This document shows positions 6,650 to 27,374 of a DNA stretch of 43,000 bases, piece by piece (the first letter of the stretch is position 1; the number at the start of each line of letters is the position of its first letter). Origin of the DNA: a virus. Under the pieces are notes generated by a model that saw only the letters and a list, made by a program, of their open reading frames with translations, searched no databases and had not been told where the DNA came from. The position numbers were made by a program, and so were the translations under genes. The stretch is taken from positions 1 through 43,000 of IMG/VR virus record IMGVR_UViG_3300023440_000009; one strand, 5' to 3'.

Positions 6650-6949
6650 TTATTTGATGATGTAGATTACTCTAGTACTAAAAAAATCAAGTCCGTAATT
6701 AGGGTATCTTCCGATACCTAGCTGTGCCCCATTAGAGAAGTGGTTCCATTCAGTTTGGAGCACAATATTTTCTGTCAACTGGGTTCTATTACCGACGCTA
6801 ATGTGGAATTGTTCGTGTCCAGTTAGGTGTGTCTTCGGGATATTAGCTACGTAGGCTGGCCCAATGCCTACTTCTAAGCAACCAGAAAGACAAAGGGCCA
6901 GCGCAACAATCGCAACTTTAAATCCCGCAGACACCCCCTTTGCAAACAT
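6650..6949 (-). CDS. Predicted outer-membrane lipoprotein with PagL-like lipid A deacylase signature
   Basis: From the ATG at 6949 the 99-residue protein has a short signal peptide (MFAKGVSAGFKVAIVALALC) and a lipobox LSGC with the lipidated cysteine at residue 24. The mature part contains EWNHFSNGAQLG and RYPNYGLDF. The H-x-S-N motif (His70, Ser72) followed by an N-x-G resembles the active-site region of PagL-type lipid A 3-O-deacylases, which also use a Glu I cannot place with certainty. The usual family is longer (about 150-185 residues) and not lipidated, so this would be a short derivative. The N-terminus overlaps the 3' end of nrdJ by 32 bases in another frame. An alternative is a small Rz1-like lipoprotein. 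Upstream starts at 6967 and 6976 are possible. Confidence 0.55.
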   Translation of the reverse strand: MFAKGVSAGFKVAIVALALCLSGCLEVGIGPAYVANIPKTHLTGHEQFHISVGNRTQLTENIVLQTEWNHFSNGAQLGIGRYPNYGLDFFSTRVIYIIK

Positions 6950-8570: not shown

Positions 8571-9351
8571 ACGCATTCCGGCAAGTCTCATATTCATTCT
8601 CAAAGAAATTGTAACAGTGTCCAGGTTCTCCTGTTTCACACATTTTTCTAACAGACTCAAACCAGAGTTCTGGAAGCTCGTGTTCATACAGGCAGCATTC
8701 AACAAATTCAGTATCCCAGTTGATACTAATATTTGTCATATCCAAAGGAGCGGGAAAATTAAAATCCTGCTCCTTTAGTTTTTTAATTTCTAGGGACCAA
8801 TCCTTGATTTTTATAAAGTCCCAAATGTCCCCATGCTGCCAATTCAAGGAAGCAAAAATTGCAGAACGGCGTGAACCCCCTTGACGTACATTGCGCCCAA
8901 TTTCATTGATGCTGCACATAAGAGGGATGGGACCAGAAGCCACCCCGCCAGTTCGTTTAAGAACGCGGCCACTTTCCCGAAGAATTGAGTAATCAACACC
9001 GATACCACCTCCAGACATCAGGCAATCAGAGGCACGTTTACAAAGATTGCCCCACTCTTCTCGAGTATCTTCCTCGGCCTTTAGCGCGAAGCAGTTATTA
9101 TAAAACTTTGCGTCGCGTCCGGCATAGTAGAGATACCGTCCACCAGGAATAAATTTCATTTGGATAATATACTGAACCAGTTGGTCTTGATCATCCTTGC
9201 TCATGAGTGGTGGCAACGTACCCCAACGTGTGCCGCAGACATCTTCGACAAGTCTACGGGCAAGAATGGGCCAGGTATCCTCTGGCCCTTGCGCATATTT
9301 AAGACGGAATACATTTTCTGCGAATGTCGTTCTAAATTGAAACTTACTCAA
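8571..9351 (-). CDS. nrdJ: Class II (B12-dependent) ribonucleotide reductase, exon 1
   Basis: This is the 5' exon (260 codons plus one base). Visible motifs are FIPGGRYLYYAGRD, NNCFAL with the redox cysteine at residue 87, the SGGGIGVDYS substrate-loop region, and RQGGSRRSAIFASL, all expected for NrdJ. It ends ETCRNA plus T, directly before the catalytic cysteine. Without splicing, translation meets a TAA two bases into the intron. No N-terminal ATP-cone is present and no second subunit gene is seen, consistent with a short monomeric class II enzyme. The start is unusual: no ATG is available, and I favour the TTG at 9351, six bases after GGGGG; TTG at 9357 is the alternative. It feeds the deoxynucleotide pool with the nearby MazG and dATP/dGTP diphosphohydrolase genes. 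Confidence 0.9.
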
Positions 9352-9365
9352 CTCCAACCCCCAAC

Positions 9366-11148: not shown

Positions 11149-11398
11149 GATTCATCCTATATATGAAATTACATTGTAGACAATTCACCCTCGGTTTCCT
11201 CTTTCCTTTATAGTGTGGATGATCCGTGCATTTATGCGTAGCCACGACCCGCATACCCGCGCACTGCCCATCAAAGTATGCACGTTGTAGGCTTGTTGCA
11301 ATTTCTTCTTCTAAATTTAGCTTGTCTCCAGATGAGAGGATTGATTGTCTATAATTATCTAAAAGCTCTTTTGCAATTTCTCTGAAATCAACTGGCAT
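11129..11398 (-). CDS. Small zinc-binding protein (89 aa)
   Basis: An 89-residue protein with a helical N-terminal half (FREIAKELLDNYRQSILSSG, LEEEIATSLQRAYFDG) and a C-terminal knuckle HKCTDHPHYKGKRKPRVNC then LQC. The His/Cys set (HxC, HPH, CLQC) with Lys/Arg between could bind zinc and nucleic acid. It overlaps its neighbours on both sides (11 and 20 bases). I do not recognise a named family. Confidence 0.7.
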   Translation of the reverse strand: MPVDFREIAKELLDNYRQSILSSGDKLNLEEEIATSLQRAYFDGQCAGMRVVATHKCTDHPHYKGKRKPRVNCLQCNFIYRMNHENTRN

Positions 11399-11747
11399 AC
11401 TTACCTACTCTATAAACACAAACCCAAAGCCCCTGCTCAAGGGCTGAATCAATCATGTGTTTAGTGCCTTTAGACTCTCCATCCCAAATAGCTAGGAGAG
11501 CATCCGCATACAGGGCCATCTCCTTATTTCTAATATACCCCGCTCTCTTACCATACTTATTCCATTCAGCAGGAAATCTAGTAATTGGGATATTTCGTTT
11601 TTGTGCCCATAGCTCACCTAACCTATCGACACCCTTTGCGCCACCAGAAACAACTTCTGTAATTGGCCACTCAATGATGTTGCCTGCAGCAGCAAGGAGA
11701 ATACTCATATCCTCTATAGATCTACTACCTGCAATTATCAATTTCAC
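11388..11747 (-). CDS. SLOG-family (YspA/DUF2493-like) nucleotide-binding protein
   Basis: The 119-residue protein has a Rossmann-like SLOG fold signature: KLIIAGSRSIED at the N-terminus, VVSGGAKGVDRLGELWAQKRNIPITRFPAEWNKYG, and ALYADALLAIWDGESKGTKHMIDSA. SLOG proteins bind nucleotides or nucleotide-derived signals, and the free-standing YspA-like group occurs in many phages and near conflict systems. No catalytic role is proven for this subgroup. It starts with GTG at 11747, eight bases after AAAGG and within the 3' end of the upstream gene (23-base overlap), so it is co-translated with the predicted nuclease. Roles in nucleotide metabolism or counter-defence are both possible. Confidence 0.85.
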   Translation of the reverse strand: MKLIIAGSRSIEDMSILLAAAGNIIEWPITEVVSGGAKGVDRLGELWAQKRNIPITRFPAEWNKYGKRAGYIRNKEMALYADALLAIWDGESKGTKHMIDSALEQGLWVCVYRVGKYAS

Positions 11748-12099
11748 TTCGATAACCTTTCCTAACCAAGTCTAAAAACACGGACCATTCCATTATAACA
11801 ATCGGAGACTGCCGATTGGATTTAACGACAAGCAGCCACGATGTTCCAGGAAGTGTGTTCTGTTTTGCCTGTGCAATCCATTCCTTTAGTCGCCAAGTCT
11901 CTTGATTTTTGCACTCAACCGAGAAAGGAAATCTTTCAAGCGCTTCACGAGAGAGTACCACATCTGTCCCACTTTGGCCCATACCACGAGAAGAAACATC
12001 TTGATCTTTTCCATAAACTGCATCAATGACCTCCGCAATGTCTTTAGCTACTTTTACTTGAAGTCTTCGACCTTTTGATTTCCTGCTTCGTGTCTTCAT
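11725..12099 (-). CDS. Putative Holliday-junction-resolvase-like PD-(D/E)XK nuclease
   Basis: The 124-residue basic protein starts MKTRSRKSKGRRLQVKVAKD and has the motif pair GQSGTDVVLSREA and FPFSVECKNQETW, matching the D-x(n)-E-x-K core of the PD-(D/E)XK superfamily (Asp in GTD, then ECK). A Lys/Arg-rich N-terminus before the core is typical of small phage resolvases. It probably processes branched DNA in replication or packaging. The ribosome site is poor; the gene starts 56 bases inside the phosphatase-like gene, so translational coupling is likely. It could instead be a mismatch- or nick-directed nuclease; the fold assignment is firmer than the substrate. Confidence 0.7.
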   Translation of the reverse strand: MKTRSRKSKGRRLQVKVAKDIAEVIDAVYGKDQDVSSRGMGQSGTDVVLSREALERFPFSVECKNQETWRLKEWIAQAKQNTLPGTSWLLVVKSNRQSPIVIMEWSVFLDLVRKGYRSEIDNCR

Positions 12100-14617: not shown

Positions 14618-15352
14618 TTAAATTTTGAGTTTCTCAACGTCTCCCCACGATAACCCAGCTTCAGCATCTCCGTCAATGGGGACATTCATCTCCCAATTAA
14701 AATATTTCTTTGCTAACTCAGGCAATTCTCTGAAATACTTTAAACAAATACGCGCAACTTTTTCAACGTGCTTCTCCTCTACATCTATTATTATACTATC
14801 ATGCACAACATTTGTCAAGTAAATTTTTTCGGAGATTCCTTTTAACTCCTTCCTGATAAAAATTAGGGCCAGTTTTGCCAAATCACATGCGGTTCCCTGT
14901 ACTGGATAATTTCGTATCTGCCTTTCTGAGTAGTCTAGATAGCCCCCTTTTTGTGGTAGTTTCTTAAATTCCCAAATTCTACCGGTAGGCCCCCGATAAA
15001 GTCCCGTTCTACGAACTTCGCGAATCCATTCTTGATGTGCCGCAGAAAGCCCAGAGTATTTTTGGAAAAATCCTGTAAGAATATTTTTCCATTTTTCCTG
15101 CGAAAAGTTGGGCATCTTGGGGTCCATATAATAACCGTACCAGCCAGTCGCAGGATCACAATAAATTGCGCGAAAGTTGAAAATCTTGGCGTTTGATCTG
15201 TTAGCGTCATTGAGTGGCAATTCCATCAAGTTGACACACGTTGCTGTATGCTGATCTACACCATCCCACAATTCCTTGATCATGATCTGATCTTGGGATA
15301 ACGCAGCAGCAACACGCCATTCTATTTGCGCAAGGTCAACATCAAGAATCAT
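14618..15352 (-). CDS. DNA polymerase family A, C-terminal catalytic fragment (split gene)
   Basis: The 244-residue protein carries the palm and fingers of a Pol I-type polymerase: motif A (LDVDLAQIEWRVAAALSQ), motif B/O-helix (RSNAKIFNFRAIYC) and motif C (NVVHDSIIIDV). It begins exactly at motif A with ATG, two codons after an in-frame stop, and needs the exonuclease-thumb fragment encoded at 15985-17169. Unusual residues: the normal F-G-x-x-Y-G of the O-helix is F-R-A-I-Y-C, motif A lacks the usual Tyr-Ser (DLAQ instead of DYSQ), and motif C has Asp-Ser instead of Asp-Glu. The two metal-binding aspartates, the Arg, Lys and Tyr of motif B, and Phe at the E. coli 762 position remain, so activity is plausible when both parts assemble. 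Confidence 0.88.
   Translation of the reverse strand: MILDVDLAQIEWRVAAALSQDQIMIKELWDGVDQHTATCVNLMELPLNDANRSNAKIFNFRAIYCDPATGWYGYYMDPKMPNFSQEKWKNILTGFFQKYSGLSAAHQEWIREVRRTGLYRGPTGRIWEFKKLPQKGGYLDYSERQIRNYPVQGTACDLAKLALIFIRKELKGISEKIYLTNVVHDSIIIDVEEKHVEKVARICLKYFRELPELAKKYFNWEMNVPIDGDAEAGLSWGDVEKLKI
14790..14818 (-). promoter_or_regulatory. Consensus sigma70 promoter inside polymerase motif C
   Basis: On the minus strand TTGACA (14818-14813), 17 bases, TATAAT (14795-14790): a full match to both hexamers. It lies within the codons for the catalytic motif VHDSIII. It would serve the genes at 14214-14606 and downstream. Confidence 0.6.
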
Positions 15353-15527
15353 CTTTTAGGAAACACTCGTTGAAATAAAATTTCCAACAGTCTTTACAGG
15401 AATGATTTTCGTTCCACGAATCATCATCACAACAAATATATGGTTCTGGCGGACAAGTACCCTCGGCTGCAAGGAAAGTACATGCAACATCCAAGGCTTT
15501 CTCCAGTTGTTCTGTTAGTGCACCCAT
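15342..15527 (-). CDS. Small Cys-rich protein inserted in split polymerase, third gene (61 aa)
   Basis: I start this at ATG 15527 (MGALTEQLEKALDVACTF), nine bases after AAGGG; ATG at 15536 is too close to that site. The product contains GTCPPEPYICCDDD and NHSCKDCWKFYFNECF, seven cysteines in 61 residues, probably a small metal-binding domain. The stop codon overlaps the start of the polymerase C-terminal gene by 11 bases, so translation of the polymerase fragment depends on this gene. It has no endonuclease motif. Confidence 0.7.
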   Translation of the reverse strand: MGALTEQLEKALDVACTFLAAEGTCPPEPYICCDDDSWNENHSCKDCWKFYFNECFLKDDS

Positions 15528-15532
15528 AACCA

Positions 15533-15757
15533 TCATCCCTTCCGAAGTTCATTCAAAAGATACTCACGAATGAGGCAACTACCACCATTCACGATCACAG
15601 CATCGTCATGTGTGCATCCACAACCACAGTAAAAACTTGGTTGCTGTGTCTTAGGACAGATTTGATATTCCTCTTCTTCCCAAAACATGCATGCATCTGT
15701 CATACAATTGTCTTTTTTAAAGATACAATATTTTCTTTCTGCTTGTCCGTACAGCAC
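15533..15757 (-). CDS. Small Cys-rich protein inserted in split polymerase, second gene (74 aa)
   Basis: The start is GTG at 15757, about seven bases after AAAGGGG. The 74-residue product has about ten cysteines, including YCIFKKDNCMTDACMFW and PSFYCGCGCTHDD, suggesting one or two bound metals. It is followed without a gap by the next small gene. The cluster of three such genes separates the two polymerase fragments. No known family or homing endonuclease signature is seen. Confidence 0.72.
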   Translation of the reverse strand: MLYGQAERKYCIFKKDNCMTDACMFWEEEEYQICPKTQQPSFYCGCGCTHDDAVIVNGGSCLIREYLLNELRKG

Positions 15758-15769
15758 TCCAAACCCCTT

Positions 15770-15949
15770 TCAAAAATGCTCCTCATCTTCATCGGTTGCT
15801 GCCCAGTATACTTTGCCCATAAACCCTATTCGCTCAAACTCGGTCAAATACCCATCTACCGTTGTCTCTGGAGGAGCTTTGCACCTTGGGCATCGAGCAC
15901 ATTTCTTTTTTGTGTTCGGCTTACAGGGCTGGCAAAACTCGAACGCCAT
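15770..15949 (-). CDS. Small Cys-rich protein inserted in split polymerase, first gene (59 aa)
   Basis: This 59-residue product begins MAFEFCQPCKPNTKKKC and continues ARCPRCKAPPETTVDGY, with three CxxC-type knuckles in the first 25 residues, then an acidic tail (AATDEDEEHF). It starts 35 bases after the stop of the polymerase N-terminal gene. The ribosome site is the weak GGGGAGAC. It is the first of three tiny Cys-rich genes between the polymerase halves. Confidence 0.68.
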   Translation of the reverse strand: MAFEFCQPCKPNTKKKCARCPRCKAPPETTVDGYLTEFERIGFMGKVYWAATDEDEEHF

Positions 15950-15984
15950 CTAGTTTGTCTCCCCACTACAAATTATTTCCCGAA

Positions 15985-17169
15985 CTACTGCAGGCATGTA
16001 TTGCGCGCCTCTGCAAATCGAGTCACAAAACACTTTTTTACTGGACCTGTATTTCCTCTTGGGATGTTCTGACCATTCGGATTCGACGAACTAAACCGAG
16101 ATGTCGCAGTTACAGTGTTATTGATAGTTGGATGAATTACCCCATCAATCTGACGTTCGTACAATCCAATGAAATACATAGATAGAAGCTGACTCATTCT
16201 ACTACGCTCATACAGCAATTCAACAACACGCTTCTGCACCTTTGTCTTTGGCTTTAGCAGAGAGAGTGCCTGCACATTTGTTTCGTAAATCCCCGCATGT
16301 TTAGTTTCACTAATCCCTAATCTTTTAGGATCAAAGCCAATTCCTTTGACAAGCTTGTCTACTTTACACTTTCGCGTATAGGTTTTCACCTCCCCGCTTT
16401 TTAGTGTGCGAGTATACTCTTCAACTCCATCAACCTTGTAGGTGCCGCCGAACAATCCGCAAGAAAGCTGCTGTGCAGACCCTGGATTTTCAATACCAAG
16501 CAGTTCGGAAAGCTCTTTGTCAATTTCTTCTAGAGTCCTACTATACTCATCTTTATAAGAGCACAAAGTCTCCAAATCAAGAGCCATTCCATTATATTCC
16601 ATTGCAGCGATAGCAGGAATAACAGCCATGTCAAGCGAGATAGGAGTTTCAAGTTGCTGTTCTTTGATACTTTTTACTTGGCGTTTGAAAATTTCGAGGC
16701 AGAGCACCGTGTCTTTGACGACATACTCAAGCAGAATATCCAAAGGAATATCTGGAGTATCAATACCTTTGTTCCAGAATTCTGCAACACGGTCATCTTT
16801 CTGCCCCAATCCGTATTGCTCAGCGAGCGCATTGAGGGACAATCCATCAAGGCGCTGATGGTGTCGGATCACATATTCTGCAGTCTGCGTACAAAACAGA
16901 AGTTTATTATCAATGTCAATCCCAAGATGATGTAACCACATATAATCAAACTTGAGATTGTGTGCAATAATCCGATCCGCTTTTTTTAGGACTTCCTCGA
17001 ATCGATACAACTCCTCTCGAAAAGATTTGTAGCTATCTTTGTGATAAAAGACAAAAGTATCAGAGTGCCCAGTATCAGTTACCACAGCAGCGCACACTGC
17101 CTGTGAATCGGGAATATATGGAAGGTGTTTAGGGTCTTTTGTGGTCTCAAAGTCAACTGCGATATTCAC
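15985..17169 (-). CDS. DNA polymerase family A, exonuclease and thumb fragment (split gene)
   Basis: The 394-residue protein has the 3'-5' proofreading motifs IAVDFETTKDPK (Asp/Glu), RIIAHNLKFDYMWLHHLG and LEYVVKDTVLCLEIF, then the thumb and first part of the polymerase domain, including TATSRFSSSNPNGQNIPRG. It stops after KKCFVTRF plus nine unrelated residues (AEARNTCLQ), just before where motif A should follow. Comparison with E. coli Pol I suggests only about four residues are missing between this end and the C-terminal fragment. The start is GTG at 17169, overlapping the helicase stop (TAGTG). Three Cys-rich genes separate the two fragments; no group I intron pairing is visible, so two proteins that associate is the simplest reading. 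Confidence 0.88.
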   Translation of the reverse strand: MNIAVDFETTKDPKHLPYIPDSQAVCAAVVTDTGHSDTFVFYHKDSYKSFREELYRFEEVLKKADRIIAHNLKFDYMWLHHLGIDIDNKLLFCTQTAEYVIRHHQRLDGLSLNALAEQYGLGQKDDRVAEFWNKGIDTPDIPLDILLEYVVKDTVLCLEIFKRQVKSIKEQQLETPISLDMAVIPAIAAMEYNGMALDLETLCSYKDEYSRTLEEIDKELSELLGIENPGSAQQLSCGLFGGTYKVDGVEEYTRTLKSGEVKTYTRKCKVDKLVKGIGFDPKRLGISETKHAGIYETNVQALSLLKPKTKVQKRVVELLYERSRMSQLLSMYFIGLYERQIDGVIHPTINNTVTATSRFSSSNPNGQNIPRGNTGPVKKCFVTRFAEARNTCLQ

Positions 17170-18413
17170 TATCCAATATACCTCCCAGAATACCTATCAA
17201 GAACCACAACACCTCTCAGTTTTTCAGGTGGGACCGCCTTTTGTTTATTCTTACAAATATTGATGTACCTGTTTTCGGAATCTCCATGCTCCTTTCCGAT
17301 GCCAATAATATAATCAAATGCCCCGGGCTTACCCGTTTTACCGGAATCAAGATTCGACTGATAAAGCCACCGCTTCCCTTCAGCAGCAGCATCAGCCTGT
17401 CCAACAGTAATACAATCAATCTTCCATTGTTCGTTCATACGGATAATCATAGCCCTAATCTTATCGTAGAGCATCTTCAACCTATCCGCACCATTCCCTG
17501 CTCTACCCTCACCACGAAATGAAATCTTATCTCCCTGATCAATTGCGACGACCCGAGGACGATACTCCACGCACAACTTTTCAATTTCATCTAGTGTCAA
17601 AATGTCTTTTGTAATAAGGTGAATACGAGAACCGCCACGTTCAAGAAACTCCTCATTGGTAGCTCGCACGTCTGCAAGAATCTCTTCTTCTGGCTTACCA
17701 AGCATCGCGCAATGTTGCCTGATTAGAATTTTATTCGGTGCTTCTTCATTATTAAACCAGAGAATGCAAGCGTCACCTGCTAACTGCTCAGCAAAATTTG
17801 TAAGTTCCGAATGAAGAAACGACGTCTTCCCTGTCTCTGGTCTTGCGAAGACGTGTCCATGACTGCCACCAGGCAAAGGGCCGAGTGCTTCCTGTAGAAG
17901 AGAAAGTCTCCATGAAAGCCCGTCTTCTGCACGCTGCGCAAGAGCAGCTTCTAGACTCTTATCAAAAATAATACTATCCGGCTCTTCTTGCTCTTTCAAC
18001 TGATCCTGATATTTTTTTATTGTCTCTTCTAAATCTCCGAAATCAAGATTGTCAGTTTCCTCTGAAATAATAGGAATTAGTTTGTTGCAGATTTCTGCAG
18101 CACAAGTCTTGCGCACTAGTTTTTTAATATACTCCAGCGCAACGTCGTTAGAAACTTCTTGCGCGTAGATTACATCAATAAGATCTTGGTACTCTTCTTT
18201 CTTCGCATATGGTGGAAACTCAATTGCAAAGAAAGATTTGAACTCATCTTGCGCGATGTATGTATGATCTGGAAATGTTGCGTAGTAGTTTTTTATTGTA
18301 CGCAGAATGATTTTATGCGTAGTTTCAAGAGCAGAATTTTCTACAAGGGAAACGTATTTTTCAAACGTTTCCCTCTTTCTTAGAAATAGTTTTAGAATAA
18401 TAAGTTCTATCAT
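17169..18413 (-). CDS. DnaB/Twinkle-like replicative helicase
   Basis: The 414-residue protein has a helical N-terminal half and a RecA-like motor: Walker A HVFARPETGKTSFLHSEL (residues 188-204), ILWFNNEEAPNKILIRQ, Walker B PRVVAIDQGDKI (Asp292), and DCITVGQADAAAEGKRW as the later sensor region. The Walker A has Pro-Glu before TGKTS instead of the usual small residues. It would unwind the phage fork with the primase encoded separately just upstream, whereas T7 fuses both. It follows AGGAG by eight bases and a consensus promoter (18472-18500), making it the first gene of a strongly expressed helicase-polymerase unit. Confidence 0.88.
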   Translation of the reverse strand: MIELIILKLFLRKRETFEKYVSLVENSALETTHKIILRTIKNYYATFPDHTYIAQDEFKSFFAIEFPPYAKKEEYQDLIDVIYAQEVSNDVALEYIKKLVRKTCAAEICNKLIPIISEETDNLDFGDLEETIKKYQDQLKEQEEPDSIIFDKSLEAALAQRAEDGLSWRLSLLQEALGPLPGGSHGHVFARPETGKTSFLHSELTNFAEQLAGDACILWFNNEEAPNKILIRQHCAMLGKPEEEILADVRATNEEFLERGGSRIHLITKDILTLDEIEKLCVEYRPRVVAIDQGDKISFRGEGRAGNGADRLKMLYDKIRAMIIRMNEQWKIDCITVGQADAAAEGKRWLYQSNLDSGKTGKPGAFDYIIGIGKEHGDSENRYINICKNKQKAVPPEKLRGVVVLDRYSGRYIG

Positions 18414-18728: not shown

Positions 18729-19556
18729 CTAACAATGAAGCAATTTCTGTATACACATTCCAGAGACAGCTTTTGGATCTTCATCGGTGTACAGAACCAC
18801 TGTACGCACACCCATTCCCCGAAGCTTGTTCGCAAACTTCATCGCCTCCTTATATTTATTCGCATCCAACCAAATATAGGTACACTGGTATTTCCTCGCA
18901 ATCAAGTAAAAATTATCGGGCATGTGTGAGCCAAGCAATGCGAGAGAATCAACAAATCTACCAGTTTTGATTGCTGAGACAATATCTTCAACAACAACCA
19001 ATTTATTACTTCCACGAAAAACCCTAAAATAGGGAGCCCGACCAACACCTTCATATACAGTATACCACTTAATTGTCGATTTGTCAAGATCATCTACCCA
19101 TCTTCCCTGATACGCAAGTAGTTTCGTTTTTGTTTTATTTTTAATTGGAAAGATAAGTCTGTTTAACGCCTCACTCCACCAAATGTCGTATTCTGATATT
19201 TCCTGTGGCGTAATCTGATATTGACTAAGCCAATTAATAGCTTTTGTTGGAAGATCTTTTGTAACATCTGGTGGCAGTTTTGTAATAATTTCTTGTTGCT
19301 TCCCCTTGTCATCCGCCACTGGCTGATGTGTCAGCCCGTTCCACTGCTCTATAATTTGACTTGGCCCCAGATCGGTCCATCGATGTCTGCCAGAGAACTT
19401 CTGGCAATGATGGCAGTGAAACACAAAGCCATTGTTCACCCGCAAAACGACAAGAGAATTTCGATGATCTCCACATTCAGAATGTGTGAATCGTTTTTTT
19501 GTACCGACGGGCTCGTTAAATCGGTACTTTTCAGGCAGAATCATCTGCTTCCTCAT
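18729..19556 (-). CDS. DNA primase (zinc-binding and TOPRIM domains)
   Basis: The 275-residue protein starts at ATG 19556, six bases after GGAGG. The N-terminal 60 residues form a zinc-binding domain (HSECGDH, then FVFHCHHCQKF) like that of T7 gp4, for template recognition. Residues 130-190 cover the RNA-polymerase N-terminal part (ISEYDIWWSEALNRLIFPI, YQGRWVDD). A TOPRIM domain follows: KLVVVEDIVSAIKTGR with the catalytic Glu, TYIWLDANKYKEA and VVLYTDEDPKA with the acidic pair. It makes RNA primers for the split family-A polymerase and is encoded next to, but not fused with, the helicase. Confidence 0.87.
   Translation of the reverse strand: MRKQMILPEKYRFNEPVGTKKRFTHSECGDHRNSLVVLRVNNGFVFHCHHCQKFSGRHRWTDLGPSQIIEQWNGLTHQPVADDKGKQQEIITKLPPDVTKDLPTKAINWLSQYQITPQEISEYDIWWSEALNRLIFPIKNKTKTKLLAYQGRWVDDLDKSTIKWYTVYEGVGRAPYFRVFRGSNKLVVVEDIVSAIKTGRFVDSLALLGSHMPDNFYLIARKYQCTYIWLDANKYKEAMKFANKLRGMGVRTVVLYTDEDPKAVSGMCIQKLLHC
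19059..19087 (-). promoter_or_regulatory. Near-consensus sigma70 promoter inside primase gene
   Basis: Minus strand TTGACA (19087-19082), 17 bases, TATACT (19064-19059). It lies within the coding region for the primase (LDKSTIKWYTVYEG). It could add transcription to the end of primase, the 74-residue gene and the helicase unit. Confidence 0.5.
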
Positions 19557-19725
19557 CCCATTCCTCCGGGTCAATACGAATAAGATTATCAATTGCTTTC
19601 ACGAGAGAAGAATCTTCAAGATTATCGGCACGAAGATATGAGGCAACCTCAAAAAGACATTCAGCACACAGTTCATCATCAAGAGAAAAATCTATAGGGG
19701 CATCACACGCTTTACATCTTAGCAT
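19531..19725 (-). CDS. Small zinc-ribbon protein (64 aa)
   Basis: The 64-residue product begins MLRCKACDAPIDFSLDDELC and continues AECLF, giving two CxxC knuckles 16 residues apart, then an acidic helical tail (IRIDPEEWDEEADDSA). It starts in a TAATG overlap with the ATP-grasp gene and overlaps the primase start by 26 bases. Small zinc ribbons with acidic tails often bind nucleic-acid enzymes; here a partner such as primase is possible but unproven. Confidence 0.75.
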   Translation of the reverse strand: MLRCKACDAPIDFSLDDELCAECLFEVASYLRADNLEDSSLVKAIDNLIRIDPEEWDEEADDSA

Positions 19726-20516
19726 TACAACAACTCCTCTCTGTGTTTAATGACAGCTTTGCAAAAGTTTTCAAGAAATGATCCTTCCATACCCGGTGCA
19801 CTATTAATTTCGATTATTTTCATTTCTCCAGACGCGGTAACAAGGAAGTCTACAGCACCAAACTCAAGACTGATAGTCTCAAGAGCACGAATAGCGGTTT
19901 TAAGATGGCTTTGCTCCGGCATATCCACATTATTCCGGGCGAACACCCACCCGTTTTTCCTCGTACGTATGTACGGGTGTGCTTCAGTAAGGCCTTCCTG
20001 TGACAGTCGTTCCTTTGATAGTTTTCTTTTTTGTGCTAGTCCAATGATCTCATCATCGAAAATAAGTGCACGATATTCTGTATAATCTTCTTTAGGTGCC
20101 ACACTGTAAAATTCAGCTCCGGGGATAACTTCATTTAGAACAATCCCCTGACCAGAATGTCCAGTCGCCGTCATTCGTGAGAAAACAACTCTTCCACTTT
20201 GTTTCCAGTTTTCTGCTATTGTGGGAAGAGTTGTCACTTCGATAATAGGAAGTTGATCGATTGTCAGCTCAGTAAATGTCCGCAATTTGTCCTTCGCAAC
20301 ACCTACTCTGACAGGTCCGTTGCAGATATAATTTGTATCTTCTTCGATTTGTAAATTTGAACATCCAAAGTTAACAACAAATTTATTTTTATACGGCTGT
20401 TCATTATATCGATTAGTCCACCTAAGAGCAACACATTCTCCTGTCATTTCTTCCAATTTGTTTTTAATACGACGGGCGGTGCGAGATTTACGATTACGAA
20501 CGACAACAAGTTGCAT
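19725..20516 (-). CDS. ATP-grasp ligase (RimK-like)
   Basis: The 263-residue enzyme has ATP-grasp features: an N-terminal pre-ATP domain (MQLVVVRNRKSRTARRI), a central nucleotide-binding part (VVFSRMTATGHSGQGIVLNEV), EYRALIFDDEIIGLAQKRKL, and the magnesium-binding end FGAVDFLVTASGEMKIIEINSAPGMEGSFLENF. Family members activate a carboxylate with ATP and join it to an amine, often making peptide or isopeptide bonds; RimK adds glutamate to a protein tail. It is near two glutamine-synthetase-fold ligases, a glutamine amidotransferase and a gamma-glutamylcyclotransferase-like protein, a combination predicted in phages to make unusual amide bonds. The start ATG follows GGAG by six bases. The substrate is unknown. 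Confidence 0.85.
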   Translation of the reverse strand: MQLVVVRNRKSRTARRIKNKLEEMTGECVALRWTNRYNEQPYKNKFVVNFGCSNLQIEEDTNYICNGPVRVGVAKDKLRTFTELTIDQLPIIEVTTLPTIAENWKQSGRVVFSRMTATGHSGQGIVLNEVIPGAEFYSVAPKEDYTEYRALIFDDEIIGLAQKRKLSKERLSQEGLTEAHPYIRTRKNGWVFARNNVDMPEQSHLKTAIRALETISLEFGAVDFLVTASGEMKIIEINSAPGMEGSFLENFCKAVIKHREELL

Positions 20517-20796
20517 CAAAAACTCCTTTGAGCGTTTGGAGATCTTTCAATAATTCCTTTCCCCGCTCGATCTCTTTCTTTACGTCGCCTTCAATACCCG
20601 CAATAAGTGCGTGGATAGCTTCGGTCTTATGGTTGTCTAGAAAATAGACGGCGTTTGCAGAGAGATTTATGTAAAATTTTTGGGGGTAATCCCATTCAAA
20701 CCAGCCCCCAGTAGGTGCTTTTTTAGACCATGTATAGATCTTAAGCTTTCCTCGAACTCTGGTAATTTGCGCAATAGAATACCTTTTAATTTTCAT
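20494..20796 (-). CDS. Hypothetical protein in amide-ligation cassette (100 aa)
   Basis: Start ATG 20796 overlaps the amidoligase stop (TAATG) and follows GGAG by five bases. The product is basic at its start (MKIKRYSIAQITRVRGKLKI), has an aromatic centre (TGGWFEWDYPQKFYINLS), and ends with a charged helix (KKEIERGKELLKDLQTLKGV). Its 3' end overlaps the ATP-grasp gene by 23 bases. Lying between two ligases and coupled to both, it may be an accessory subunit or a substrate carrier. No family is recognised. Confidence 0.7.
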   Translation of the reverse strand: MKIKRYSIAQITRVRGKLKIYTWSKKAPTGGWFEWDYPQKFYINLSANAVYFLDNHKTEAIHALIAGIEGDVKKEIERGKELLKDLQTLKGVFDATCCRS

Positions 20797-22346
20797 TACA
20801 GCTCCCATGCTTTTTTGAGAAGGTTGTATTTTTTGGTACGGTGGTGTTTCAAATAATTCAAAAAGTCTTTAAAAGTGTACTCAGAAACTTTTAGATTCAT
20901 TCGTTGTGTCCAATGATAAGCCGCATCCAAAAATTGAATACGTGTGAGCAGCTCATCGTTGTTTTGTGTCGCACTGAACAACCTTATTTCGACAGTTTTA
21001 TTCCCAATGTGAGCCCACACATATCTAGATTCGTGAGATGTTTTATACTTTGCTTTGTCAATAATTCGTTCTTCAAATGCCGAGCAATATCTATTTCCAC
21101 GGCGGCTTCCCACAAACCGAGTTCCCCGGCCAAACAAATTTCTATTTCGCTGTCGCTGACAAAGCTGAAGAAATTTCAAGAATTTGTACAAATGTCCTTT
21201 TGTAAATGCTGCCAAACTCATATGGATGTGGGTGCCGGCGGTCTCGTAGTTATTTTCTCCGTAAATAGTTAGAACGGGGGGCACAAAGGTAGTTTCTAGG
21301 CATTTGTGGAATGGCTTTGGGTCAAATACAATTTCAAAACCATTGTACAAACTACCATCATGAATCGCAAAAATATCATCTCTATGAAGATACGCATTTC
21401 TCAAAGCGTCAGCATGCTCACGAGCATTAAGCCTCGCAAAATCAAACTCTAATTCAACACCATAAAGTAGATGATGTGTGTCGTCTATCTCGTAGTTTTT
21501 GTGGAAGTTCCAGGGAAAGACTGGAAGTGGCAGACATTCACTGCAATAATTGTTAACGAAGTAGTCGTGGTGTCCCTTTCGTCCAACAAATAGACACTCT
21601 TTTTCACATGATTTGCAGCTGCCAGTTTGCCACGAACCTGTGTATAAACATCTGCTACAGATGGTTACTGGCTTTGTTTTACTCCAATAATAGACGTCTT
21701 TTGCTGCTGGAATCTTACCACAAATTTCACAAAGTTCTACCTCTGGAATAGCCGGTTTTTCAGAACTACAAATTGAGCATTTAGTTATATAGGAAACGAT
21801 CTGATGATAACTGCTTCCAAGCTCATGTGTGATAAAGTGATAATTTCCGCAATGGGTGCATGTAAACAACAAATAGTCATCAAACTGATTGCTTCTATAA
21901 CACAAATTACAAATTTTTCTTTTGTTATCAAAGTCAATCGTAATTATCTCACGATAATTATCTAGTAGAGAATTCCCACAACATTCACATTTTGGGGTAT
22001 TCTCAAGACAGTTCTTGCAAATAATCCGCTCATGATTCGTATATTCAGAATCAACAAAGTCAACAACATTTATTCTCTGTGAACAGTGTCTGCAGCATAG
22101 TGCTCGTACAACGGAATGACATGCGGGGCAAAGTTCATCAGACTCTACGTTAAGATGTTCAACCCCACAAGCCCAACAAACCTTAGCTGAAACACATCTT
22201 GCACAGACATACTCATTATTAATCTGTCTTGTGTAGCGCTCCTCACCACATCTATCACAAATACCACGGGAACTAAGACGCCTTGTGGCACGAAACGACA
22301 AATCCAATTTCCGGTAAAGAAAATAAAGTCGCGTTTCTGGTGTCAT
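20796..22346 (-). CDS. Amidoligase fused to seven tandem zinc-ribbon modules
   Basis: The 516-residue protein has two parts. Residues about 28-290 hold seven CxxC...CxxC units (starting CDRC, CWAC, CRHC, CECC, CTHC, CEIC and CKSC), spaced roughly 30-40 residues apart. Residues 300-516 resemble the Amidoligase_2 family with a glutamine-synthetase fold: LLYGVELEFDFARL with the metal-binding glutamates, IHDGSLYNGFEIVFDP, ETAGTHIHMSLAAF with the His pair, and NKTVEIRLFSAT with the Arg. Such enzymes are predicted to form amide bonds between carboxyl and amino groups. A zinc-ribbon array this long on an amidoligase is unusual and may recruit the substrate. Start ATG 22346 overlaps the upstream stop (TGATG) and follows GGGGG by five bases. 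Confidence 0.85.
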   Translation of the reverse strand: MTPETRLYFLYRKLDLSFRATRRLSSRGICDRCGEERYTRQINNEYVCARCVSAKVCWACGVEHLNVESDELCPACHSVVRALCCRHCSQRINVVDFVDSEYTNHERIICKNCLENTPKCECCGNSLLDNYREIITIDFDNKRKICNLCYRSNQFDDYLLFTCTHCGNYHFITHELGSSYHQIVSYITKCSICSSEKPAIPEVELCEICGKIPAAKDVYYWSKTKPVTICSRCLYTGSWQTGSCKSCEKECLFVGRKGHHDYFVNNYCSECLPLPVFPWNFHKNYEIDDTHHLLYGVELEFDFARLNAREHADALRNAYLHRDDIFAIHDGSLYNGFEIVFDPKPFHKCLETTFVPPVLTIYGENNYETAGTHIHMSLAAFTKGHLYKFLKFLQLCQRQRNRNLFGRGTRFVGSRRGNRYCSAFEERIIDKAKYKTSHESRYVWAHIGNKTVEIRLFSATQNNDELLTRIQFLDAAYHWTQRMNLKVSEYTFKDFLNYLKHHRTKKYNLLKKAWEL

Positions 22347-23089
22347 CAGATCCCCCACAAAGTTTTGCTAACAGATTTGGCTCTTTCAATATCACCAGTA
22401 TTGATGATATCACGGACTTCTTCGGAAATGTTCAGCGTTTTGTAGTCATTGACCGCTGCCTGCACCTGCTCAAAGATGATTTCCTGCAAATTCTCATCAA
22501 ACACCCAATTGTTCGATGGTGTTCGATACTCAACCCCGTAGATCTTAGTACGGAACGCGCCGGCTTTGCCGTACAATTTGCGACGCTCCGACTTCTTCTC
22601 GTGTGCAAGAAGGGGAATTCCAACGAAGAGATCCAGACATCGCACAAAGCGAGGCATATCAGTAATTTTAATATCTCCAATGTGAATATGCCCACCAACA
22701 CACCGTAGTGTGGTTTCCTCCAAACACGGTTTGGGGTTTGGTTTCCCGTTTAACCACGCATCAAAATCAAGTGCGCACCCAGCTCTTTGAGAAAGTGGAT
22801 GCTTCAGATCCTCTTTATTGAACTGATGGGTGTCTTTTTCCTTACATAAGGAAAGGTTTTTTGGGGAAATAAATTCCTCTACAACTTCAATGGCATCTTT
22901 GATCATTTTCCTAAACGCTTTTACTGTTTTTGCTGGCTGGATGCCGAATTCTACTGCGACGTTATCACAGTGGAATGTGACATCTCCTCGAGATACTGCC
23001 ATACGTTTGGGTATGGGAAAGAAGTCAGCGAAGGAAACAATCTTACCTTTTTGAGATACGAAAATCTCAGGGTCACATCCCAGGTTCAT
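22346..23089 (-). CDS. COOH-NH2 ligase, type 2 (phiEco32-like)
   Basis: The 247-residue protein fits the phage COOH-NH2 ligase type 2 family, a glutamine-synthetase-fold group first seen in phiEco32-like phages: NLGCDPEIFVSQKGKI at the start with the conserved Asp-Pro-Glu, CDNVAVEFGIQPA, LRCVGGHIHIGDIKI with the His pair, and KIYGVEYRTPSNNWV with the Arg. It is predicted to use ATP to link a carboxylate to an amine. The next gene also encodes a ligase of this fold, so two related enzymes may act in order. I start it at ATG 23089, eight bases after AGGG; GTG at 23095 is too close to that site. Confidence 0.88.
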   Translation of the reverse strand: MNLGCDPEIFVSQKGKIVSFADFFPIPKRMAVSRGDVTFHCDNVAVEFGIQPAKTVKAFRKMIKDAIEVVEEFISPKNLSLCKEKDTHQFNKEDLKHPLSQRAGCALDFDAWLNGKPNPKPCLEETTLRCVGGHIHIGDIKITDMPRFVRCLDLFVGIPLLAHEKKSERRKLYGKAGAFRTKIYGVEYRTPSNNWVFDENLQEIIFEQVQAAVNDYKTLNISEEVRDIINTGDIERAKSVSKTLWGI

Positions 23090-23288
23090 GTTCACGTCCC
23101 TTTTGAAATCCAGAGATAAAAGGAAAAATTGAATCCCAGTTTGCTACATAGATAATTGGCTTTCCATTAAAACGAATAATAAACTTATCCTCAGCCTCTT
23201 GCTCTATTTCAAGCCCAGATTCCGCAGCAAATCTTTTATAAAAATTAAAAATGTCTTTTTTATTCTCGTCTTTCATAATCCCGTTCAT
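23073..23288 (-). CDS. Hypothetical protein in amide-ligation cassette (71 aa)
   Basis: I start this at ATG 23288 after AAGGTAGG. The 71-residue product has a charged helical first part (MKDENKKDIFNFYKRFAAES) and a beta-like second part (KFIIRFNGKPIIYVANWDSIF). It overlaps the ligase gene downstream by 17 bases. An exact copy of the 18-bp palindrome lies 15 bases upstream of its start, between this gene and the glutamine amidotransferase gene. The function is unknown. Confidence 0.68.
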   Translation of the reverse strand: MNGIMKDENKKDIFNFYKRFAAESGLEIEQEAEDKFIIRFNGKPIIYVANWDSIFPFISGFQKGREHEPGM

Positions 23289-23303
23289 TTTCGTACCTAC
23301 CTT

Positions 23304-23321
23304 GTTGCAGATTTCTGCAAC
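23304..23321. repeat. 18-bp palindrome, copy C (exact)
   Basis: GTTGCAGATTTCTGCAAC in the gap between the glutamine amidotransferase gene and the gene 23073-23288, directly before the ribosome site of the latter. Confidence 0.88.
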
Positions 23322-23322
23322 G

Positions 23323-24294
23323 TCAAGTGTTAACAAGTTTCAGTGCCCAGCCAACTTTAGAATATTCGTCGGCACACTGCTTACAAATAGCCCCTACATA
23401 GCCACTTGTGTTATCGTATGCTTTGTACTGTGTTGTTCCTCCGCAATCTTCACAGGTATACATTGTTGTTTCTTTCTTTTTTAGGAAATCCTCAAGAGTT
23501 TCTGATGTATACCAGTCTGCTTTGAAATCATATTTTCTCCACTCATTGAAATAATGAACCCAAACAAACGTAGCTGTTCCAATCGCAATAGCGTAAAAAT
23601 TGATGAGGTTGTCCCACCAAACAGCGTATTGTTTTCGGTACTTTTTCGGGGGTTTGTGTGCCTTTCGTTCCTTCCCTCTAGAATAGGCATGAGAATTTTT
23701 CTCCCACTCGTAGCCGCTCCAGTATCCATATGGATTCCGGAACTGTTTTACTGTTCCCCTCCAGTAATCAGATGAGTATTCAATTCCCCCATGTTTCTCC
23801 CATTTGTGTGAGTTTAGCAGTAGCGCCCGACCATCTCTGGCCAGAATCGCGACACGGGAAAAGTCAATCAGGTTTTCGAGGAGGAAGTGGATACTCTGGT
23901 TTTCAAACCAATCCTCCGGAAGTTCGTCAATTAGTTTTGCGAGTTTCGATGAGTCCGACTCTTCATCCCCAAACTTTGTAAGTGATGTAATAGTCCCGTT
24001 GTGCATTAGGGCATACTCCCCGTTATTAATGACAAACGGGTGACAATTTTTTATATTTGTTTCCCCAGCAGTTGTGTTTCGCAAATGCAGAATGATTCTT
24101 GATTTTGGGAACTCCTTAAACACCTCATCGTATTTCTTTTTAAACTCTTCAAAATCAAGCGTTTTGAATGTTCGGACTGGACCTTCGTCTGCATGCCACA
24201 TCAGCCCGAATCCGTCCTTGTTATGCAAATAAGAATTTTCAAGATGTTCTTCAGGTACTTTAATGCCAATATCTGGAACAATGATGATACACAT
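23323..24294 (-). CDS. Class II glutamine amidotransferase with hydrophobic segment and zinc ribbon
   Basis: The 323-residue protein begins Met-Cys, giving the N-terminal nucleophile Cys of class II (Ntn) glutaminases. Family motifs follow: LHNKDGFGLMWHADEG, RIILHLRNTTAGETNIKNCHPFVINNGEYALMHNG, and SDSSKLAKLIDELP. The domain would release ammonia or transfer a glutamyl group from glutamine. Two extra parts are unusual: a strongly hydrophobic segment at about residues 230-252 (LINFYAIAIGTATFVWVHYF) and a C-terminal zinc ribbon (YTCEDCGG, then AICKQCADEY). The Met must be removed for activity. It lies among two amidoligases, an ATP-grasp protein and a gamma-glutamylcyclotransferase-like gene, so it probably supplies nitrogen or a glutamyl unit to that pathway. 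Confidence 0.86.
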   Translation of the reverse strand: MCIIIVPDIGIKVPEEHLENSYLHNKDGFGLMWHADEGPVRTFKTLDFEEFKKKYDEVFKEFPKSRIILHLRNTTAGETNIKNCHPFVINNGEYALMHNGTITSLTKFGDEESDSSKLAKLIDELPEDWFENQSIHFLLENLIDFSRVAILARDGRALLLNSHKWEKHGGIEYSSDYWRGTVKQFRNPYGYWSGYEWEKNSHAYSRGKERKAHKPPKKYRKQYAVWWDNLINFYAIAIGTATFVWVHYFNEWRKYDFKADWYTSETLEDFLKKKETTMYTCEDCGGTTQYKAYDNTSGYVGAICKQCADEYSKVGWALKLVNT

Positions 24295-24310
24295 GATTTG
24301 TTACATTCTC

Positions 24311-24550
24311 CTAGACGTTTGAAAGAGTTATCTCGCCAGTAAAGTCTTCAAAACGACTCTCGTCCCACGAATTACTATTATGTCCAACAGATGTGTGTGG
24401 ACGCGTAGAGTAGACAACAGTTCCAGACTTTCTCCTATAAAAGAGAACAATAATTATGTGATTTGTAGAAGGATATTTAAATTTTTTCAAACGGGGATAT
24501 AAGGCAACGATATTACTTTGTTTGTTTTTAATCTCACTTTTTACTGACAT
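24311..24550 (-). CDS. Hypothetical basic protein in amide-ligation cassette (79 aa)
   Basis: The start ATG 24550 overlaps the stop of the cyclotransferase-like gene (TAATG), nine bases after GGAGG. The product is Lys/Asn/Ser-rich with a beta-like centre (HIIIVLFYRRKSGTVVYSTR) and an acidic end (ESRFEDFTGEITLSNV). It is translationally coupled to the cyclotransferase-like gene. No family is recognised. Confidence 0.68.
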   Translation of the reverse strand: MSVKSEIKNKQSNIVALYPRLKKFKYPSTNHIIIVLFYRRKSGTVVYSTRPHTSVGHNSNSWDESRFEDFTGEITLSNV

Positions 24551-24885
24551 TACCAACAACCTCCTTCAACAACAGGTAGATCTCCGTAAACCTTATCATC
24601 AGACACCCACAGAGAAACAGGTTCACCATCTGTGGTTTTCGTTTCTTCCAGCCAGTAGCCAGCCCCTTCCTCTATAGAAGCGACTATGTTATAGGTATCC
24701 TTATCTACTTCGTAAACCTCTCCATGTACCACGTCGTTTTTATCTCCGTGGAATACGACAGGATAAGGACCAGCATCCCTAAGAGAGTATCCTTTCACAG
24801 ATGCATGTCCAATATACGTACTGTCGGAAAGAATCCGATTTAGACCAAAACCTTTTTTCAACGTACCATAAACAAACATTCGCAT
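24550..24885 (-). CDS. Gamma-glutamylcyclotransferase-like (AIG2/GGCT) protein
   Basis: The 111-residue protein has the GGCT-fold signature at its start, MFVYGTLKKGFGLNRIL, then GYSLRDAGPYPVVFHG and VVHGEVYEVDKDTYNIVASIEEGAGYWLEE, where the acidic residue of the SIEEG stretch corresponds to the catalytic Glu position. Family members cleave gamma-glutamyl amides, releasing 5-oxoproline, or form related bonds. In a cassette with ligases that can build such amides it may trim, proofread or transfer the product. The start has AAGGAG eight bases upstream and overlaps the gene before it by 28 bases. Confidence 0.88.
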   Translation of the reverse strand: MRMFVYGTLKKGFGLNRILSDSTYIGHASVKGYSLRDAGPYPVVFHGDKNDVVHGEVYEVDKDTYNIVASIEEGAGYWLEETKTTDGEPVSLWVSDDKVYGDLPVVEGGCW

Positions 24886-25109
24886 TGAATTACTCCTTTA
24901 CGATACCCCCCCAAAAAGACGTCCTTGGAAGTCTGTTCACCGTTATTCTGATAGATTTCTACGAGAGGCATACAATCACACTTACTTTCCCCTTTGCTTT
25001 TTTCAGCGATTTCTTCTAACAAAGAAAGTCCACCTTCGTTTACTTCAAGATTAATAAATGTTTCAGAATGGCATCCCACTAAAACAATAGTTACAGGAAT
25101 CTTATCCAT
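24858..25109 (-). CDS. Hypothetical protein (83 aa)
   Basis: I start this at ATG 25109 (MDKIPVTIVLVGCHSETFIN); an upstream in-frame ATG at 25142 lies inside the palindrome and lacks a ribosome site. The product is beta-rich at its start, acidic in the middle and Cys-containing (ESKCDCMPLVEIY, VIQCECLFMVR). A metal-binding role for the two CxC motifs is possible. An exact palindrome copy lies 16 bases upstream. Its end overlaps the cyclotransferase-like gene by 28 bases. Confidence 0.65.
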   Translation of the reverse strand: MDKIPVTIVLVGCHSETFINLEVNEGGLSLLEEIAEKSKGESKCDCMPLVEIYQNNGEQTSKDVFLGGYRKGVIQCECLFMVR

Positions 25110-25125
25110 ATTATACAACCTTTCT

Positions 25126-25143
25126 GTTGCAGATTTCTGCAAC
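25126..25143. repeat. 18-bp palindrome, copy D (exact)
   Basis: GTTGCAGATTTCTGCAAC between the stop of the gene 25145-25960 (one base away) and the start of the gene 24858-25109 (16 bases away). Confidence 0.88.
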
Positions 25144-25144
25144 G

Positions 25145-25960
25145 TTAGTAACTCTCGAACAGATATTCGTAGAACTTCATAACGAAATCTTCAGAAATAG
25201 TCTCTGCATTAATTTTTACGCCACGATACGCACCCTGCCAGTCATTATAGTACATTTGTTTTAAAATGTGCTCATCCCAAGGTGGCAATGTGATTTTTTG
25301 TGCAAATTCGCGTGCAGTATCTTCCATATAATATGTATAGCTATCAAGCGCAACATCATACATTTCTTTAATACATTGTGACAGATCTTTTGGTGAGTGC
25401 ACGGATTGTGATGTGTGTGAAAACCAAAACCGGAAGGGAAAATATCCCCCATCAGTACCATGAGCGTACCATTCATCATCTCCATATTGCTGTGCAAGCA
25501 GCAGTGCCCGTTCCCACGGGATCCCAAACTTATAGAATCTGATAAACAGGAGCACCCACCACGGATATGCCCAAAGCATCCGTTGGGTGATCATTGCGGG
25601 GTAGTAGTTTTTCGGTTCTCCATCATATTCCATCCAGTAGTAGGTGTTCCGATATTTGTGTTTAAAGGTTTTTGCAATATGCCTTAAACGAGTTTTCCCA
25701 AGTGTTTCTGAAATAAAAAACTCTGATTCATTTTTGTATACCACGCCAACGAGGTATCTGGTATCGTTTGGAGCAGACACCCATCCTGGAGGCGAATCAG
25801 CCCCGTATGCTACTGAAAACTGCTCCAAAGACATACACCCAAATTCTGCAACGTCCCCATCTTGTGTTTTGACAAGAGAGAATTTTGGAACTGGGTGGTT
25901 TTTAATGTTCTCAACATCTCCAAAATACAGCAGACGATCTACAAGTGACTTTTTAGGCAT
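25145..25960 (-). CDS. Hypothetical protein (271 aa)
   Basis: The start ATG 25960 follows AAGGAG by eight bases; upstream in-frame starts lie inside the small membrane protein gene. The protein begins MPKKSLVDRLLYFGDVENIK, has a PPGWVSAPNDTRYLVGVVYK stretch, an aromatic, partly hydrophobic centre (MLWAYPWWVLLFIRFYKFG at about 140-160) and many Tyr/Trp residues toward the C-terminus. The centre could touch a membrane, but the rest looks soluble. I recognise no family. It is the first large gene upstream of the amide-ligation genes and could belong to that pathway. Confidence 0.72.
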   Translation of the reverse strand: MPKKSLVDRLLYFGDVENIKNHPVPKFSLVKTQDGDVAEFGCMSLEQFSVAYGADSPPGWVSAPNDTRYLVGVVYKNESEFFISETLGKTRLRHIAKTFKHKYRNTYYWMEYDGEPKNYYPAMITQRMLWAYPWWVLLFIRFYKFGIPWERALLLAQQYGDDEWYAHGTDGGYFPFRFWFSHTSQSVHSPKDLSQCIKEMYDVALDSYTYYMEDTAREFAQKITLPPWDEHILKQMYYNDWQGAYRGVKINAETISEDFVMKFYEYLFESY

Positions 25961-26129
25961 TGTTTCTACTCCTTTTCTTATTAAGAACAACCGTGTCTAC
26001 GTACCAATGACGGTATCTAACGGGCCACATTGGAAAGTAGTAACCTAGAGAAACAATCTGAGCGATGTTTCCTAGTAAATCAATCCAATAAATCAACCAG
26101 CGAAAGAACCACAGAATTAATGCGCGCAT
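25953..26129 (-). CDS. Small hydrophobic membrane protein (58 aa)
   Basis: A 58-residue product from ATG 26129, preceded by GGGAGG with five bases of spacing. It begins MRALILWFFRWLIYWIDLLG and continues NIAQIVSLGYYFPMWPVRY: a single, Trp-rich membrane segment near the N-terminus followed by a basic tail (NKKRSRNNA). It overlaps neighbours on both sides (13 and 8 bases), so it belongs to the operon. It may be an early membrane-active or exclusion protein, but this rests only on its topology. Confidence 0.7.
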   Translation of the reverse strand: MRALILWFFRWLIYWIDLLGNIAQIVSLGYYFPMWPVRYRHWYVDTVVLNKKRSRNNA

Positions 26130-26488: not shown

Positions 26489-26506
26489 GTTGCAGAAATC
26501 TGCAAC
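26489..26506. repeat. 18-bp palindrome, copy E (exact)
   Basis: GTTGCAGAAATCTGCAAC, one base after the stop of the gene 26508-26714 and directly before the terminator stem. It is the only exact copy not placed just before a start codon. Confidence 0.88.
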
Positions 26507-27356: not shown

Positions 27357-27374
27357 GTTGCAGAATTCTGCAAC
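27357..27374. repeat. 18-bp palindrome, copy F (exact)
   Basis: GTTGCAGAATTCTGCAAC, fully symmetrical including the centre, 16 bases before the start of the gene 27161-27340. Confidence 0.88.

Follow-up and report, generated by a model that had tools for sequence, protein, structure and literature searches.

The 43,000-nucleotide viral genome IMGVR_UViG_3300023440_000009 (IMG/VR, positions 1 to 43,000; hereafter the window, meaning this whole stretch) carries on its minus strand, at 19725–25109, a cassette of five enzyme genes for amide-bond chemistry: a RimK-like ATP-grasp ligase, an amidoligase (PF12224), a COOH-NH2 ligase type 2 (PF14395), a class II glutamine amidotransferase (GATase), and a GGCT-like gamma-glutamyl(amine) cyclotransferase. 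An earlier note, made from the letters alone, had placed these five genes here and proposed them as an undescribed system. Pfam and PHROG profile searches located all five families at that position. The same gene set next to replication genes has, however, already been published as a peptidoglycan modification cassette, and the window cassette is a mixed version of it, not a new system. What is new beyond the literature is that the cassette, judged by profile scores, is a chimera of two phage lineages, and that across phages the PF14395 ligase co-occurs with an enzyme of a type that can remove gamma-glutamyl groups.

Conserved motifs and predicted glutamine synthetase (GS) folds agree with the family assignments of the earlier note, which were correct. 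The ATP-grasp gene (19725–20516 from an ATG at 20516, with a TTG start possible at 20519) matches PHROG 2599 (E 2.5e-44). A profile of six phage proteins searched against the PDB gave RimK-type ligases (S6 ligases) as the closest solved relatives (E 1.7e-13), and the alignment of the six contains 34 invariant columns, including a lysine, the glycine-rich loop and an E-x-N motif. Although RimK is the best PDB match, the RimK Pfam model PF08443 scores the window protein at 16 bits, below its cut-off of 21, and the R2K clade models PF18299 and PF14243 also remain below their curated cut-offs (22.3 vs 26.2 and 18.9 vs 26.3 bits). The amidoligase (20796–22346, open reading frame (ORF) to 22358; 26.9 bits, cut-off 22) begins with about 285 amino acids holding 14 CxxC motifs, a zinc array whose model is poor (predicted local distance difference test (pLDDT) mostly under 50), followed by a C-terminal domain (residues about 291–520) that is predicted to adopt the GS fold (VIA-align Z about 12) and conserves E302, E304, D334, E342, G375, H377, R419, E457 and R459. 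The PF14395 ligase (22346–23089, ORF to 23095; 72.3 bits, cut-off 25; PHROG 3815, E 6e-57) yields a confident model (pLDDT 93) with a glutamate-cysteine-ligase/YbdK-like fold. YbdK and the N-terminal part of the bifunctional glutathione synthetase GshF match it best (VIA-align Z about 13), but glutamine synthetases score equally and Dop and PafA nearly as well, such that the YbdK/GshF, GS and Dop/PafA types are not separable by fold. Both ligases combine a predicted GS fold with conserved acidic, His and Arg residues. The GATase (23323–24294; PF13230 30.7 bits, cut-off 23; PF13522 27.6 bits, cut-off 27) begins with Met-Cys, ends in a CxxC ribbon, and conserves C2, R72, H85, P86, F87, H98, N99, G100 and D114, which supply the R, HPF, HNG and D motifs of N-terminal nucleophile class II enzymes. 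The GGCT-like protein (24550–24885; PF06094 58.3 bits, cut-off 22.8) has PH0828, YtfP and AIG2-like protein 1 as PDB relatives, contains a YGTLK motif, and has Glu72/73 within the aligned region, a position that may, by analogy, be catalytic.

To place the cassette among its relatives, viral contigs were retrieved with alignments, because single-sequence scans of viral contigs with the window ligase and amidoligase gave no confirmed relatives; a DNA-level search of phages found nothing. The loci used for co-occurrence are the best-scoring of each scan and include related phages that are not independent of one another. In most canonical loci the order is class I GATase, PF14395 ligase, a protein of about 200 amino acids, amidoligase, class II GATase and ATP-grasp, to which a GGCT may be added, and amidoligase, class II GATase and ATP-grasp are all present, mostly in one order, in 68 of the 73 PF14395 loci with enough flank. 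The other architecture, here called A-type, is the two-gene lineage known from OM43 phages (the canonical type being B-type). In 115 of its 119 viral loci the next gene after the amidoligase is a class II GATase different from the canonical one (median gap 0 nucleotides), sometimes together with an ATP-grasp or GGCT. At least two CxxC motifs precede the GS domain in 64/67 A-type amidoligases. Among loci from genome contigs, a class II GATase lies beside the amidoligase in 16/16, and a viral or phage-like character is apparent in several of the loci inspected.

Profile hidden Markov models (HMMs) of the two types, built with the window left out, assign the window amidoligase to the A-type (69.6 bits vs 25.6 for B-type) and do the same for its GATase (107.7 vs 54.6 bits). 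The PF14395 ligase is of the canonical type, and the ATP-grasp is close to members of both. By these scores the window cassette is a chimera in which an A-type zinc-array amidoligase and GATase have been combined with a canonical PF14395 ligase, which indicates that the units are exchangeable between lineages. The OM43 phages MEP401 and MEP402 and many metagenomic phages (PMC10580990) share the amidoligase–GATase lineage and have primase, helicase and PolA nearby, but in them the two genes are adjacent and PF14395 is absent, whereas in the window the pair is split by the PF14395 ligase. One other clear mix was seen, on IMG/VR contig 3300026120_000001 (L115). Like the window it has a PF14395 ligase, ATP-grasp and GGCT together with an A-type zinc-array amidoligase and GATase; unlike the window it has a different gene order, a longer ligase, and a second GATase-like protein (11321–12085) with a CxxC ribbon and no N-terminal Cys. 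This second protein adjoins the active-looking GATase and zinc-array amidoligase, and is possibly a non-catalytic partner.

The canonical cassette is common and has been described repeatedly. PF14395 relatives were found by tblastn in 317 of 50,697 phage records, and the gene in 521 viral stretches. Under the name 'peptidoglycan modification cassette', the phage set adjoining replication genes appears in PMC5498523, PMC6256558 and PMC11945000, which refer to Iyer 2009 and/or Hardies 2013, and prevention of superinfection has been proposed as its purpose (PMC5498523, PMC6256558, PMC11945000, PMC10580990). Phages KZY1, T5S1, QDWS535, Teru and Bas91 all carry the PF14395 ligase with amidoligase, GATase and ATP-grasp upstream of primase and helicase, and the Zobellviridae KZY1 and T5S1 have the same order as the window, GATase, PF14395 ligase, amidoligase, ATP-grasp. 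The window cassette shares with those of the phiEco32/LUZ24/RIO-1 type the four clustered core genes (PF14395 ligase, PF12224 amidoligase, class II GATase and ATP-grasp), the gamma-glutamyl-removing enzyme that is often a GGCT there, and the position upstream of a primase (18729–19592 in the window) and a DnaB-like helicase (17169–18413). It differs from them in lacking the class I/C26 GATase (present in 62/73 loci) and the protein of about 200 amino acids, HYP200 (49/73), and in having an amidoligase and GATase from the other lineage, the amidoligase with a zinc array.

The class I 'GAT1' proteins of canonical loci match Peptidase C26 (E 2e-21), a family that includes gamma-glutamyl hydrolases. 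Where flanks are adequate, 66 of 67 viral loci with a PF14395 ligase contain C26 or GGCT, versus 8 of 70 without the ligase (Fisher p about 1e-28, a value that overstates certainty because related phages are not independent and loci are the best-scoring of each scan, the pattern still being strong), and with sequences clustered at 60% identity the counts are 44/45 versus 2/23. Among the 61 canonical loci with an ATP-grasp, 43 have C26 only, eight have both, 10 have GGCT only, and none has neither; the GGCT-only loci are spread over several distant lineages. The window fits this pattern, as its GGCT is present and a search with the GAT1 profile detected no C26-type gene. This co-occurrence points to a gamma-glutamyl bond that the PF14395 ligase would make and that either GGCT or C26 would remove. 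It lends new support to part of the scheme first suggested for these genes, in which glutamine or glutamate is activated, successive ligations follow and gamma-glutamyl groups are taken off; the scheme as a whole fits. In the Puu pathway (PuuA/PuuD) and with the butirosin enzymes BtrJ/BtrG, a gamma-glutamyl group is likewise added by a ligase and removed by a C26 hydrolase or GGCT. The parallel is one of analogy only, and the substrates and ligase families differ.

We favour, tentatively and at a little under an even chance, the reading that the cassette is an early-region phage operon of separable amide-chemistry units that act on peptide-like substrates by adding and removing gamma-glutamyl groups, by glutamine-dependent amidation and by ligation of an amino acid. 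The zinc-array amidoligase and class II GATase would form a two-subunit glutamine-dependent amide synthetase, a proposal supported by the adjacency of the two genes (in 115/119 A-type viral loci and 16/16 loci from genome contigs). The GATase would free ammonia from glutamine, and the GS-fold subunit would activate a substrate carboxylate with ATP and amidate it. In a second unit, the PF14395 ligase would form a gamma-glutamyl bond that GGCT (in most relatives the C26-type class I amidotransferase) would take off again, the gamma-glutamyl group serving as an intermediate or a protecting group, comparable to those of the Puu and BtrJ/BtrG systems. The RimK-like ATP-grasp would add a further amino acid as a third unit. 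The target would be changed early in infection, since the genes of the PSA-HP1 cassette are 'expressed immediately' after infection (PMC7082346). The cassette is widespread in phages and its role has only been guessed at since 2009; the division into units and the tight link between ligase and remover turn a vague idea into specific biochemical tests. If the envelope or proteins are indeed modified, it would add a new route by which phages alter their hosts early in infection.

Given that this chemistry is right, host-envelope peptides or their precursors are the most likely target, although here too we stay short of an even chance. In the literature the envelope is proposed as target more often than anything else, and it gains modest support here, because the PF14395 ligase of Bacillota adjoins a YheC/D ATP-grasp and an AstE/M99-like carboxypeptidase. 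PF14395 occurs in 52 of 398 sampled Bacillota genomes, and the ligase stands beside a YheC/D-type ATP-grasp in 20/20 loci (fused to it in one) and beside an AstE/M99-like carboxypeptidase in 12/20, M99 being described in Pfam as a carboxypeptidase that controls cell shape. These loci resemble the phage cassettes in giving the ligase an ATP-grasp partner and differ in their larger proteins, their ATP-grasp family and their cellular genomes. Though distant, the Bacillota context favours a peptide substrate, possibly of the envelope. Several points weigh against the reading we favour. The GGCT and C26 families also perform other reactions; the A-type pair often occurs without the second and third units, so one common pathway is not required; the relatedness of the sampled phages, as stated above, tempers the co-occurrence statistics; the zinc-binding arms of the amidoligases suggest a macromolecular partner rather than free muropeptides; and the published accounts (PMC5498523, PMC6256558, PMC11945000, PMC10580990) propose a peptidoglycan role and demonstrate no reaction. 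A more specific version would join gamma-glutamyl protection and release to the glutamine-dependent amidation of a macromolecule (a protein, an envelope precursor or a nucleic acid) that the zinc array recognises, with GGCT and C26 interchangeable. We know of no such pathway in a virus; this version is conceivable and, on balance, unlikely.

The main rival to an envelope target, helped by those zinc-binding arms, is protein tagging, in which the RimK-like ATP-grasp and the GS-fold ligases would put glutamyl or amide groups on host or phage proteins for the takeover of transcription, translation or replication, as RimK does on S6 or PafA with Pup. Among solved structures the ATP-grasp is nearest to S6 ligases, the fold matches include Dop and PafA, zinc arms suggest protein or nucleic-acid binding, replication genes adjoin the cassette in both architectures, and a role in modifying host proteins has been proposed for R2K ATP-grasps (PMC4431377). 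We nonetheless rate tagging as unlikely. It leaves the gamma-glutamyl-removing partner of the PF14395 ligase unexplained, and no protein that might be a carrier or substrate accompanies the cassette strictly. Less probable again is that the enzymes serve as auxiliary metabolic genes that make or recycle glutamine, glutathione-like or gamma-glutamyl metabolites for phage replication. Every family does have small-molecule relatives, but zinc-array fusions are unusual for small-molecule enzymes and hosts already possess nitrogen assimilation. Phage-ZRK32, which carries an amidoligase, a GATase, a 'glutathione synthase' and a GGCT, is reported to promote growth with nitrate or ammonium, although the portion of that report considered here does not test individual genes (PMC10945688).

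There may also be no single pathway at all, the amidoligase–GATase pair, the PF14395 ligase with its deglutamylase, and the ATP-grasp merely sharing a recombination-prone slot upstream of the primase while having unrelated roles. The A-type pair stands alone in most of its 119 loci, three loci (L034, L037 and L038) have a PF14395 ligase with C26 and/or GGCT and without the rest, and the window itself mixes lineages; we still consider this improbable in view of the 68/73 PF14395 loci where amidoligase, class II GATase and ATP-grasp are present too, for the most part in a single order. Most improbable of these readings is that amino-acid groups are attached to phage DNA or nucleotides as protection from restriction, because the DNA of cassette-carrying phages is cut by many restriction enzymes: that of the LUZ24-like phage tf by RsaI, HpaI, EcoRV, SmaI and HaeIII (PMC3517423), and that of the LUZ24-like U17 by 11 of 16 enzymes (PMC11945000). 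The cassette does lie inside the replication region, and cassette-carrying Gordonclarkvirinae resist restriction, but here the BASEL authors suggest a dCTP deaminase instead. Normal bases, moreover, lack a carboxylate, and none of the scanned window genes looked like one for base hypermodification.

The five enzyme genes are interleaved with four small ORFs, all on the minus strand: a 94-amino-acid ORF (83 from ATG; 24858–25109), an 82-amino-acid ORF (79 from ATG; 24311–24550), an 87-amino-acid ORF (71 from ATG; 23073–23288) and a 104-amino-acid ORF (about 100 from ATG; 20494–20796) between amidoligase and ATP-grasp. The gene unit is larger than 19725–25109, since a 64-amino-acid acidic protein with two CxxC pairs (19531–19725), just before the primase, is coupled by a TAATG to the ATP-grasp gene, and a 281-amino-acid orphan ORF (25145–25990 from TTG, 25145–25960 from ATG), whose membership is uncertain, lies upstream. 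The overlapping starts remarked on in the earlier note are present at seven junctions, counted from ATG starts. Four are stop/start overlaps (GGCT/82-amino-acid ORF, again a TAATG; PF14395 ligase/amidoligase; amidoligase/104-amino-acid ORF; ATP-grasp/64-amino-acid ORF) and three are longer (94-amino-acid ORF/GGCT, 87-amino-acid ORF/PF14395 ligase, 104-amino-acid ORF/ATP-grasp), while gaps separate the 82-amino-acid ORF from the GATase and the GATase from the 87-amino-acid ORF.

No support was found for a role of the four small genes as conserved subunits, carriers or substrates. The 104-, 87- and 94-amino-acid ORFs have no tblastn relatives in the 50,697 phage records even at E 1, the 281-amino-acid ORF has no family match and no relative in phage records, and none of these four has a match at the corresponding slots of other loci; the slot equivalent to the 104-amino-acid ORF in phage T5S1 holds a 137-amino-acid ORF without detectable similarity. 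The 82-amino-acid ORF matches PHROG 34898, of unknown function (E 6e-10). The 281-amino-acid ORF was also considered as a diverged version of the hypothetical proteins that precede canonical cassettes, an idea set aside because the likeness is by eye and no search backs it. A family of small acidic proteins with two CxxC pairs, often ending in Glu, stands before the primase (L179, L198 and L143; about 119 loci), in 38/39 A-type loci with an ATP-grasp against 29/62 otherwise, and is found as well in L224, a phage region that lacks the cassette. A LysW-like carrier role was rejected for the window's 64-amino-acid ORF, which ends in Ala, has no C-terminal Glu, and is not detected by the profile of this family; the strict link to a RimK-like ligase expected of such a carrier also fails, as the related-looking family occurs without the cassette.

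Two gaps in the cassette region each contain an 18-bp palindrome, GTTGCAGAWWTCTGCAAC, one between the GATase and the 87-amino-acid ORF (23304–23321) and one between the 281- and 94-amino-acid ORFs (25126–25143). Ten copies with at most three mismatches occur between 12844 and 28984 of the window, including others at 26489–26506 and 27357–27374, where 0.05 would be expected, and the palindrome looks like a candidate operator. It is present once each in nine other viral contigs, so the repeated array seems specific to the window phage.

Among cellular sequences, one Bacillota chain (L242, 118–2892) fuses the PF14395 ligase to the YheC/D ATP-grasp. A Lokiarchaeota match (L208), considered as an argument against peptidoglycan, was not used, as its neighbours include terminase, SSB and DnaB and it therefore looks like a viral contig. 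When 398 genomes from the phylum of G001 were searched for PF14395, neither a match nor a signal from the controls appeared, and this result is given no weight. A paper on a Pseudomonas syringae ATP-grasp gene was likewise put aside, as it concerns a host gene and not the cassette.

Elsewhere in the window, the ends (1–127 and 42874–43000) are identical over 127 bases, either a circular assembly overlap or a terminal repeat, from which the 43,000-base genome is probably complete, as a circular assembly. A protein at 9990–10649 matches both PHROG 5033, 'endolysin; inhibits RNA polymerase', and a dATP/dGTP pyrophosphohydrolase family, and the endolysin name may be a wrong label. The large subunit of ribonucleotide reductase (6918–9357) is divided into two pieces by an intervening LAGLIDADG homing endonuclease, which suggests an intron or intein, and the DNA polymerase (14618–17169) is split over two ORFs, as in OM43 phage MEP402.

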